From: Bradyrhizobium sp. URHD0069
GTDB taxonomy: Bacteria; Pseudomonadota; Alphaproteobacteria; Rhizobiales; Xanthobacteraceae
Assembly (NCBI RefSeq): GCF_000701345.1
Contig: NZ_KL370776.1
Span: 67,321 to 131,320 of the forward strand
Length of the DNA: 64,000 nucleotides
Direction: 5' to 3'
The position numbers and the translations under genes are program-made. The first letter of the stretch is position 1, and every line of letters begins with the position of its first letter. Shown piece by piece: positions 4,296 to 23,052 of this stretch. The notes under the pieces are model-generated. The model did not search any database and was not told the DNA's origin. It saw only the letters and a program-made list of their open reading frames with translations.

Positions 4296-5189
4296 TCAGC
4301 TCGCCTTGCGATGTCGCGCCGGCGAGCGATGCGCTTTCTTTGCCGTGCGATGCGCCGATCGGCCTGCCGGGGAGTGAGTCCGGCGCTTTGCCGACGCCTT
4401 GTTTGCTGAACTCCTGCCTTTCAGGCTTTGCTGAAGCGCATCCATCAGGTTGATCACGTTGCTCGGCCGTTCCTCGGGCTCGACGATCTTCACCGGCTTG
4501 CCGGCGGCCTTGCGCCTGACCAGCGTCTTCAGCGCGTTCTCATATTCATCCTTGAATTTCGAGGGATCGAAATGTGCGGCCTTGGTGTCGAGGATATGGC
4601 CGGCGAGTTCGATCATGTCCTTTGATATCTTCGGATTCCTGATGTCGTCAAAATATTCGTGTTCGTCCCGCACCTCGTAAGGATATCGCAACGTGGTGCC
4701 GAGCAGGCCCTTGCCCAGCGGCTCGATTGCGATGATATGCTCGCGGTTGGTTAGAACGATGCGCGCCAGCGCGACGCGATCCTTGTCCTTCAGGGCGTCG
4801 CGGATCACAACGAAAGCGTCGACACCGGCCTTGCCGTCGGGCGCGATGTAATAGGGGCGATTCAGGTAGCGCTTGTCGATTTCGTCCTCCGGCACAAAGC
4901 TGTCGATGTCGATGGTATGGGTGCTTTCGATCTGGACGGCCTCCAGCTCTTCCTTTTCGACCTCGACGGCTTCGCCTTTCTTCAATTCATAGCCGCAGGC
5001 CTTCTGATCGCCCTCGACCACATCGCCGGTCTCAGAATCAACCATCTGCTGCTTCAGCCGGTTGCCGGTTTCCTTGTTGATCATGTGGAAGCGGGTCTTT
5101 TCGACGGATGTCGTGGCCGGATAAAGCAACACCGGGCAGGTGACGAGGGAAAGCTTCAGCGAGCCTTTCCAATAGGCGCGAGGGGCCAT
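4296..5189 (-). CDS. ku: Ku homodimeric DNA-end-binding protein (NHEJ)
   Basis: 297 residues, the usual size for bacterial Ku, which threads onto double-strand DNA ends and recruits LigD. It begins [16 protein letters not shown] and carries the beta-barrel core motifs ([40 protein letters not shown]). The C-terminal ~40 residues form a Lys/Arg/Ser-rich tail, typical of the DNA-binding extension of rhizobial Ku. The frame is open further upstream to 5339, but the ATG at 5189 has a GGAGAG ribosome-binding site and matches the family start. It is divergent from ligD and has a general-stress-type promoter at 5241-5265. Confidence 0.95.
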
Positions 5190-5232
5190 TACACTCTCCG
5201 GCTTGTTACGTGCTATACGGCAGGTGAATTCG

Positions 5233-5257
5233 GGAACTTCAACGACGGTTGAGGGTT
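5233..5257 (+). promoter_or_regulatory. EcfG/RpoE2-type general-stress promoter for ligD
   Basis: GGAAC at 5233-5237, a 16-base spacer, then GGTT at 5254-5257, matching the alphaproteobacterial general-stress sigma consensus GGAAC-N16-NGTT. Predicted transcription starts near 5264, giving a leader of about 50 bases to the GTG at 5317. It overlaps the opposing ku promoter. Confidence 0.65.
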
Positions 5258-5265
5258 TTGGTTCC
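5241..5265 (-). promoter_or_regulatory. EcfG/RpoE2-type general-stress promoter for ku
   Basis: On the minus strand GGAAC (plus 5265-5261), 16 bases, then CGTT (plus 5244-5241): an exact match to GGAAC-N16-CGTT. It would give a leader of about 45 bases to the ku ATG at 5189. It occupies almost the same DNA as the ligD promoter on the other strand. Confidence 0.7.
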
Positions 5266-5316
5266 GGGGTCGTTGCATGCGCGGCTCTCGGCCATTCGAC
5301 TCGTGTGGGATCGATC

Positions 5317-7974
5317 GTGTCTCTGAGAAACCTCTCCACCTATCGAAAAAAGCGCGACTTCGAGAAAACCGCAGAGCCGAGCGGCGACACGCCGGTGACG
5401 CCATCGAAACAGCGGCGTTTTGTGATCCAGAAGCACGATGCGAGCCGGCTGCACTACGATCTGCGGCTCGAGTTCGACGGCGTTTTCAAATCCTGGGCGG
5501 TGACGAAGGGGCCCTCGCTCGATCCGCACGACAAGCGGCTGGCGGTGGAGGTGGAGGATCATCCGCTCGACTACGGCGATTTCGAAGGCACTATTCCGGA
5601 GGGGCAGTATGGCGGCGGCACCGTGCAGCTTTGGGACCGCGGCTACTGGGAATCCGACGATCCGGAGCGAGGCTTCAAAAAGGGCGATCTGAAATTCACC
5701 CTGCATGGCGACAAATTGCACGGCAGCTGGGTGCTGGTCCGCATGCGCAACGACCGCACCGGGGGAAAACGAACCAACTGGCTTCTGATCAAGCATCGCG
5801 ATGAATTCGCCAAAGAGGGCAAGGCCAACAGCATCCTGGACGCCGATCAATCGGTCGCGTCGGGACGCACGATGCAGCAGATTGCCGAAGGCAAGGGAAG
5901 AGCGCCGAAACCTTTCATGACGGCGAAGTCGGGTCGCGGCAGGGCTGACGCGGTCTGGCATTCAAACCGCGGCGATGCCGCCGAAGCGCGCGCGGAACGC
6001 AACAAAGGCGCATCGCAGGCCGCACTGTCCAAGGGCAAGAAAGTCGGCGCGATGCCGGATTTCGTCGCGCCGCAGCTCTGCACCCCCGTCGATCGTCCGC
6101 CCGGCGGCGAGGGGTGGTGTCATGAGATCAAGTTCGACGGCTACCGGGTGCAATTGCGCGTCGAGGCCGGCGAGGCCGCGTTGAAAACCCGCAAAGGTCT
6201 CGACTGGACGGAAAAATTCGAAGCCATTGCGAAAGAGGGAAGTGCGCTCCCCGACGTGCTGATCGACGGCGAGATCGTCGCGCTCGACCACAACGGTGCG
6301 CCGGATTTTTCGACCCTGCAGGCCGCACTTTCCGACGGCAAGACTGACAACCTGATCTTCTTCGCGTTCGACTTGCTGTTCGCCGATGGAATGGATGTTC
6401 GGCGGGTGCCGCTTGGCGCGCGCAAGGCGCAATTGAAGGAATTGCTGGAGGGGCGGCCCAAGAGCAAAAGCAAATTGATCCGCTATGTCGAGCATTTCGA
6501 AAGTAGCGGCGACGCCGTTCTGCAGTCGGCATGCAAGCTGGCGCTGGAAGGGATCGTCTCGAAGAAGCTCAGCGCACCCTATCTTTCCGGTCGAACCGAA
6601 AGCTGGACCAAAGCCAAATGCCGCGTAGGACATGAGGTCGTGCTGGGAGGATGGAAAACCACCAGCGGCAAATTCCGCTCGCTGATGGCGGGCGTTTACC
6701 GCGGCGACCACCTGGCCTTTGTTGGCATGGTCGGCACCGGCTTCGGGCAAGATAAGGTCAAGCGCATCATGCCGGCGCTGAAAGCCGCGGCCTCGGACAA
6801 AAGCCCGTTCGGCGGCAAGAATGCGCCGCGCAAGACGCGAGACGTGCATTGGCTGAAGCCCGAGCTCGTGGCCGAGATCGAATTTGCCGGCTGGACCGAG
6901 GGCGGCAACATACGGCAGGCTGCATTCAAGGGGCTGCGCCAGGACAAGCCAGCCGCCGAGGTCGAAGCGGAAAACCCGGCCATGGCGAAAATTGCCAAAC
7001 CTGTCGAGAAGACCGCGGCCAAATCCGGCAAGTCGGCCAAGGGGCGCGCCAAGCCGGCGGACAGCAAATCCGCCGAGGTCATGGGCGTGATCCTCTCCAA
7101 GCCCGACAAGGAGCTATGGCCGGATGCCGGCGATGGCGAAGGCGTCACCAAGCTCGATCTCGCCCGATACTTCGAAGCGGTGGGGGGCTGGATGATCGGC
7201 CATTTGAAGGGCCGGCCCTGCTCGATCGTCCGTGCGCCTGATGGCATCGGCGGCGAGAGATTCTTTCAGCGCCACGCCATGCCGGGTACCTCGAACCTTC
7301 TGGAACTGGTCAGGGTCTCCGGCGACCGCAAGCCTTATTTGCAGATCGACCGTGTCGAAGGTCTCGCAGCGGTGGCGCAGATCGGCGGCGTAGAACTGCA
7401 TCCGTGGAATTGCGCGCCGTTTGCGCCGGATACGGCGGGGCGGCTGGTATTCGATCTCGATCCCGCGCCTAACGTCGAATTTGCCGATGTCATGGAAGCC
7501 GCCAAGGAAATGCGGCAGCGCCTGGCGGACGTTGGTCTGCAGAGTTTCTGCAAGACCACCGGCGGCAAAGGACTTCACGTGGTGACGCCGCTGGCGTACG
7601 GCGCAAAAGACAAGGTGACATGGCCGGAGGCAAAAGCTTTCGCGCGCGACATTTGCCAGTGGATGGCCAATGACGATCCTGAGCGCTATCTGCTCAACAT
7701 GTCGAAGAAGCTGCGCAAGGGAAAGATCTTCCTCGACTATCTTCGCAACGACCGCATGTCGACGGCGGTTGCGGTGCTGTCGCCCCGGGCTCGAGAAGGT
7801 GCAACTGTCTCAATGCCGCTGACCTGGGCGCAGGTGCGAGGCGATCTCGACCCGAAGCGCTATACGATCCGCACCGTGCCGGGGCTGCTCGCCAGGACGA
7901 AGGCGTGGCAAGACTATGATGAGGCGGCATCATCGATAAAGCCCGCGATCAAGAAGTTGGCCGCGCGGCAATGA
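5317..7974 (+). CDS. ligD: ATP-dependent DNA ligase LigD (phosphoesterase-ligase-polymerase)
   Basis: 885 residues; the multifunctional end-processing enzyme of bacterial NHEJ. Domain order is 3'-phosphoesterase (about 25-170, with [13 protein letters not shown] and [11 protein letters not shown]), ATP-dependent ligase (about 240-540, nucleotidyl-lysine K272 in KFDGYR), and primase-polymerase (about 600-885, HPWN at 695 and the metal-binding DLD at 713-715, then [11 protein letters not shown]). This PE-LIG-POL order is that of Pseudomonas, not Mycobacterium. The GTG at 5317 is chosen because conserved sequence starts there ([14 protein letters not shown]) and the stress-type promoter lies just upstream; the open frame back to 5203 would cross that promoter. 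A Lys-rich linker separates LIG from POL. Confidence 0.95.
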
Positions 7975-23027: not shown

Positions 23028-23052
23028 GGAACGCCGCGGACACGAGAGAGTT
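23028..23052 (+). promoter_or_regulatory. EcfG-type general-stress promoter for malQ
   Basis: GGAAC at 23028-23032, 16 bases, AGTT at 23049-23052. The predicted leader is about 65 bases to the malQ ATG at 23124. The -35 abuts an inverted GGAAC facing glgE. Confidence 0.5.

Follow-up and report, generated by a model that had tools for sequence, protein, structure and literature searches.

The 33 bp at positions 5233-5265 of the window, the 64,000-nucleotide stretch of DNA analyzed here, very probably constitute a bidirectional general-stress promoter that would be used in two orientations by RNA polymerase carrying the sigma factor EcfG, as judged by comparative sequence analysis. The element lies between ku, encoded on the minus strand at 4296..5189, and ligD, encoded on the plus strand at 5317..7974. 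Ku (297 amino acids, ATG start) matches Pfam PF02735 with an E value of 5.1e-46, and LigD (885 amino acids, GTG start) contains phosphoesterase, ligase, and Prim-Pol domains (Pfam PF13298, PF01068, PF04679, and PF21686). These domains uphold the original prediction that the sites lie between two NHEJ genes. A ku ribosome-binding site, GGAGA, is predicted at 5199-5195 on the minus strand, where the TCTCC columns (5195-5199) are conserved at 0.90-0.98. The ku reading frame is open through the promoter to a GTG codon at 5339 and the ligD frame is open back to a TTG codon at 5203 (window 5203-5339), and automated annotation could therefore call genes that overlap here and mask the element.

The element, GGAAC TTC AAC GACGGTTGAGG GTT TTG GTTCC, has the form GGAAC-N3-AAC-N11-GTT-N3-GTTCC and contains two opposed GGAAC-N16-[C/G]GTT sites, one on each strand, exactly where they had been predicted to lie. 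The plus-strand site at 5233-5257, GGAACTTCAACGACGGTTGAGGGTT, is the putative EcfG-type promoter of ligD, with a -35 box GGAAC at 5233-5237 and, after a spacer of 16 nt, a -10 box GGTT at 5254-5257. The minus-strand site at 5265-5241, GGAACCAAAACCCTCAACCGTCGTT, is the putative EcfG-type promoter of ku, with GGAAC at 5265-5261 and, again after 16 nt, a -10 box CGTT at 5244-5241; the sequence confirms the earlier description of this site as an exact CGTT match. Both promoters are assigned from the motif and its conservation, and the 33-bp element, which belongs to neither strand, from its exact pattern and conserved core. Bases 5241-5257 are common to the two opposed core promoters. The originally predicted distance of 45-55 bases to each gene holds only as an approximate length of the 5'-UTR, the gap between the end of the -10 box and the start codon being 51 nt for ku (ATG 5189) and 59 nt for ligD (GTG 5317).

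Motif counts were no higher than controls, and motif counting was discarded as proof of promoters. The window contains seven GGAAC-N15-17-GTT matches against 3.9 expected, and at least seven were found in 11 of 100 shuffles. A genome-wide scan against a background, which had been proposed along with the original prediction, showed no enrichment: GGAAC-N17-GTT occurs 239 times in the 6.79-Mb genome, against 290 times for the reversed control pattern. One of the window matches, at 8324-8300, was rejected as a false-positive promoter, the GGAAC-N17-GTT belonging to a hairpin that resembles a terminator, with TTTTTT after it. Such counts are those expected of chance motif matches; however, conservation across genomes and the genomes with separate sites (below) refute chance in our reading and leave it a negligible probability. 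It is this conservation, not the number of motifs, by which the two sites exceed chance.

Of 265 Bradyrhizobium genomes, 221 carry the exact 33-bp pattern, which fixes 16 bases, in a single copy, and none carries the reversed control. The pattern lies 24-54 nt upstream of a strictly defined ku-type start in 172 of the 265; among the other 49 pattern-bearing genomes are some with a longer gap or a different first codon (L003, L018, and L019). Half of the 44 genomes lacking the exact pattern have ku at an E value of 1e-120 or better and the remaining 22 do not. The 22 with ku comprise three in which ligD is not on the same contig, ten with separate sites, eight whose shared element is altered by an indel or substitution, and one whose distant ku has no site. 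In six of the eight loci with an indel or substitution, both spacers stay at 17-18. A reading of L007, L064, and L065 as cases of ligD loss proved wrong, since ligD is on another contig in each genome and the ku contigs break off ∼525-610 bp before ku on its upstream side. In G025 (L267 3159-3418), ku is reduced to its first 46 residues and the element and ligD are intact. Across the order, 15 of 397 genomes carry the exact pattern: 12 of Bradyrhizobium, two that represent two further genera in the family and have it at the ku-ligD locus, and one that has it at an unrelated site. This last occurrence, in G368 (L146), was taken as unrelated because its contig differs from those of the listed ku matches of that genome.

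A sample independent of the motif gave the same picture. By protein similarity, 123 ku loci were collected (L001-L030, L063-L143, and L161-L172), L144 and L145 (27-31% identity) having been dropped before counting. Two of the 123 were dropped at <70% identity (L081 and L143), 18 had ligD farther away or beyond the contig end, and 103 had ligD within 250 bp. The 103 loci yielded 89 distinct intergenic sequences, with only exact duplicates merged and with some genomes present in both collections. A ku-facing site was present in 87 of these 89 regions, a ligD-facing site in 88, and both in 86, counts that are not independent events because the sequences are related to one another. The column majority over the 89 sequences averaged 98.8% for the 16 core bases, 54% for the 11 middle bases, and 47% for the flanks, the flank columns being alignment-dependent. 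The other well conserved stretch outside the core was the ku ribosome-binding site. Exceptions were L010, in which the ku -35 box is lost (CGAAC) yet ku is kept, L025, with N16 on the ligD side, and L137, with ATT as the ku -10 box. Bradyrhizobium-type ku-ligD loci with the exact element also occur in records titled as a Mucilaginibacter MAG (L125) and Frankia sp. RB7 (L134), which are probably mislabelled or contaminated.

The outer and inner boxes of the 33-bp element are exactly symmetric, and the opposed sites are offset by 8 in 83 of the 86 regions that contain the two and by 9 in the other three. Both features would be expected if the element were a dyad-symmetric operator at which a dimeric regulator controls both genes, its likeness to promoters being secondary. 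However, the symmetry does not extend to the bases between the boxes, and the indels noted above alter the symmetry but mostly preserve the promoter spacers. Genomes in which the two genes do not share a single element are still more telling. There are 14 of these, and they form two clades and hence are not 14 independent events; the ku-facing site is at ku in 14/14 and the ligD-facing site is at ligD in 14/14. In the first clade, of ten genomes (L068, L071, and L073-L080), ku has GGAAC-N17/18-GTT with no overlapping partner and ligD has its own GGAAC-N17-GTT in all ten, eight of these lying 374-822 bp from ku and those of G129 and G251 being found at their ligD loci. In G129, ku and ligD are megabases apart. 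In the second clade (G012, G196, G197, and strain SZCCT0158, locus L085), the element is doubled, with one copy by ku and one by ligD, and the flanking sequence common to both copies points to duplication. The ku copies of G012, G196, and G197 have the ligD-facing GGAAC replaced by GGAGC or GGAGT, and their ligD copies have kept the ligD-facing GGAAC and lost the ku-facing GTTCC. SZCCT0158 retains both -35 boxes in the ku copy, and its ligD copy is without the ku-facing parts.

Over the 14 genomes, the -35 box directed toward the other gene is thus lost or absent in 13 of 14 ku copies and in all 14 ligD copies. The half-sites of a dimer operator should be kept together at fixed spacing, and these losses contradict that expectation. 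Each site persists beside its own gene where ku and ligD share no element, and it is the half facing away from a gene that is lost, as fits two promoters and not a palindromic operator. With the one-way sites of other ku genes (below), this makes the operator very unlikely and favors two promoters. That 14 genomes have separate sites for the two genes also shows that sharing one element is not needed for co-regulation. The doubled element (L085, L260, L261, and L266), with opposite -35 boxes lost in three of four genomes, is a small case of complementary promoter degeneration. The ligD contigs of G196 and G012 end ∼500 and ∼290 bp before ligD, respectively, and in these genomes ku and ligD may adjoin each other with an insert between them, like the pair in L085, 1046 bp apart; in G197, ligD lies ∼60 kb inside its contig. 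No ligD-facing site was found at a second ligD of G012 (L265, 68%).

In a quick Ku tree of 79 rows, both separate-site clades sit among rows with the overlapping element, including those of other genera. This placement suggests that the overlap was the original state of this ku group and has been undone at least twice; the tree has many weak forks, places the overlapping L168 within the ten-genome clade, and requires six label changes with four distant rows excluded.

Sites of the same type precede many other ku genes. Of a further 58 ku loci (L173-L230), 53 belong to other genera in the order, one is a Bradyrhizobium paralogue, and four are on plasmid records (one of them also Bradyrhizobium). 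Starts were placed approximately by alignment, none being obtained for L196, and 63 ku upstream regions resulted. A ku-facing GGAAC-N17/18-GTT was present in 41 of the 63, always ≤110 nt from the start, and was absent from 22; because several come from the same genus, the regions do not count as independent. Shuffled controls (500 sets) gave a mean of 0.23 ku-facing sites and a maximum of 3. Sites pointing away from ku were found in 10 of the 63 regions, the sites of other ku genes being mostly one-way, which argues against the operator. When spacers of 12-24 were scanned, N17 occurred 18 times, N18 23 times, and any other length 0-2 times. This concentration at 17-18, together with the retention of both spacers in six of the eight genus variants, indicates that the spacer is held by selection. 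The fully overlapping arrangement GGAAC-N-GTTCC was seen in four of the 63 regions (L184, L188, L210, and L226), for which we make no claim, ∼2.6 (41/16) being expected were CC to come after GTT by chance. The B. japonicum plasmid locus L190 (4001-4849) contains another ku-ligD pair, its ku being 67% identical, that adjoins rpoH and has a ku-facing site only in its 72-bp intergenic region. Three other ku genes read in the present genome (50-52% identical) have no site near their starts, and so of the four read there only the ku at 4296..5189 looks stress-controlled.

EcfG is the sigma factor that best fits the motif. The accessible part of a study of Rhizobium etli gives its EcfG motif as GGAAC-N16-CGTT (PMC3892343), and excerpts of a study of Sphingomonas melonis give GGAAC-N17-20-GTT and place Ku among the EcfG-dependent genes (PMC6599016). 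With GGAAC as the -35 box, (c)GTT as the -10 box, and 16-17 nt between them as the EcfG pattern, the present sites read N16-CGTT for ku and N16-GGTT for ligD; the latter -10 box, being GGTT and not CGTT, counts against the EcfG reading. The genome encodes NepR (57.1 bits against a cut-off of 25.7), and an ECF sigma gene and phyR, recognized by reading the sequence, adjoin nepR. The phyR-nepR locus served as a control, in which GTA was permitted as a -10 box since the genus loci have CGTA or AGTA rather than GTT. In the phyR direction, GGAACTTTT...GTA (GGAAC-N16, then CGTA or AGTA) was found in 15 of 18 genus loci, and the same GGAACTTTT site ends in CGTT in three of five loci of other genera. 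In the direction of nepR, the genus loci showed no conserved site. Both results of this control weigh against the EcfG reading. The promoters could be genuine and used by another ECF sigma factor that recognizes a GGAAC -35 box. We consider this improbable given the agreement of spacing and -10 boxes with the published EcfG motifs and the EcfG dependence of Ku in S. melonis; moreover, the one other B. japonicum ECF motif of similar layout that we found, that of EcfF, reads GTAAC(g,a)-N14-15-(t,c)CG(t,a) in the available text of PMC3420878. We infer that both promoters depend on EcfG. The original assignment of one general-stress promoter to each gene is in this way borne out by comparison, through the gene-linked sites in separate-site genomes, the sites in 41/63 other ku upstream regions, and the S. 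melonis Ku gene.

The proposed mechanism of the bidirectional EcfG promoter is as follows. Under stress, PhyR would free EcfG from NepR, and RNA polymerase with EcfG would bind the element in either orientation. Rightward, GGAAC at 5233-5237 and GGTT at 5254-5257 would start the ligD transcript at about 5263-5266; leftward, GGAAC at 5265-5261 and CGTT at 5244-5241 would start the ku transcript at about 5232-5235, these putative start points being placed 5-8 nt past each -10 box. As one sigma factor would feed both orientations, ku and ligD should rise together. The melted region and start of each promoter would cover the -35 box of the other. As the ligD transcript would begin at the ku -35 box and the ku transcript at that of ligD, two open complexes should not coexist, and from this geometry we infer mutual exclusion of polymerases at the overlapping promoters, with one open complex at a time.

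Whether the two orientations limit each other would depend on promoter strength. In E. coli, according to the accessible text of PMC12825309, the two sides of bidirectional sigma-70 promoters do not compete when activity is basal, and strong activity of one side represses the opposing transcript and lowers its noise. Full general-stress induction might reach the competitive regime. Tentatively, then, the element may act in Bradyrhizobium and its sister genera as a shared polymerase port at which competition under full stress ties Ku to LigD output and lowers cell-to-cell variation in their ratio, a possibility, close to the balance of Ku and LigD synthesis first suggested, about which we are doubtful. 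The same two EcfG promoters might instead overlap merely through the shortness of the intergenic space, with no regulatory effect, an explanation that differs from the preferred one only on what the overlap does and that has nearly an even chance of being right. The absence of competition at basal activity in E. coli is in keeping with it, as is the existence of two clades that have separate sites and have retained both. An indel in the shared part would shift both spacers, so that the overlap could persist by inertia. However, the overlap is kept in most genomes even though intergenic regions of 95 to 156 bp, at the named loci, allow separate sites.

The ku-ligD pair adjoins a long run of apparent trehalose, glycogen, and pentose-phosphate genes at 8882-35734, named from their translations as treY, treZ, glgX, glgB, a treS fusion, glgE, malQ, zwf, gnd, and tal-pgi. 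Some genes of these types are in the S. melonis EcfG table, as excerpted from PMC6599016. Within the run, a GGAAC-N17-GTT at 23028-23052 ends 71 nt before the probable malQ (23124, plus strand), with a GTTCC in the opposite direction just upstream; this site may be a further stress promoter, within the trehalose/glycogen cluster.

Through a bidirectional EcfG promoter, a complete NHEJ pair would come under general stress control throughout most of a large soil and symbiotic genus, and ku would fall under the same control in numerous further genera of the order. The element would also exemplify a bidirectional promoter of the ECF type that selection has apparently preserved. The genomes contain natural controls in which ku and ligD have shared, doubled and degenerated, or fully separate promoters. 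These variants allow the question of whether overlapping promoters set protein ratios to be addressed in living strains.

Control of NHEJ by RpoE2 in Sinorhizobium meliloti is reportedly the subject of a primary paper, Dupuy 2019. The review PMC12844678, in its available part, states that the S. meliloti Ku2-LigD2 and Ku3/Ku4-LigD4 systems are under RpoE2, in agreement with what the original prediction had stated for some of these genes. The resemblance is that the general stress sigma factor of alphaproteobacteria governs both Ku and LigD in S. meliloti; the same part of that review does not mention promoters that overlap and face opposite ways. Two Sinorhizobium plasmid loci that we read differ, the ku of S. 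medicae (L187) having no site upstream and NGR234 (L188) having two ku genes that are preceded by sites. For S. melonis Fr1, the table of EcfG-dependent genes has a GGAAC-type EcfG site 30 nt before ku (#1102); unlike the present element, it is listed in the available text as a single site, with ATT as the -10 box and no divergent ligD promoter (PMC6599016). Against the R. etli motif, the ku-facing site is an exact match and the ligD-facing site has G for C, and the accessible portion of PMC3892343 describes no bidirectional element. Among the titles, abstracts, and passages retrieved by searches of the open-licence literature, we found no report of overlapping EcfG/RpoE2 promoters or of ku-ligD in a Bradyrhizobium EcfG regulon; specifically, the accessible parts of PMC3616915 and PMC8125078 name neither ligD nor NHEJ, and those of PMC4842269, PMC8092242, and PMC7719229 contain nothing on a ku-ligD promoter.

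A parallel in architecture is provided by the E. coli sigma-70 bidirectional promoters of Warman, Grainger, and colleagues, in which pseudo-symmetric DNA likewise accommodates two mutually exclusive polymerase orientations, with usual distances between start points of 18, 10, and 23 bp in the accessible text (PMC12825309). In contrast, the Bradyrhizobium element would use an ECF-type sigma factor, its boxes are interleaved at an offset of 8, and its start points would be about 30 bp apart. Stress-controlled NHEJ, in S. meliloti and for Ku in Sphingomonas, and EcfG-type promoters are already known; what seems new is the arrangement of EcfG-type promoters as a conserved bidirectional element.
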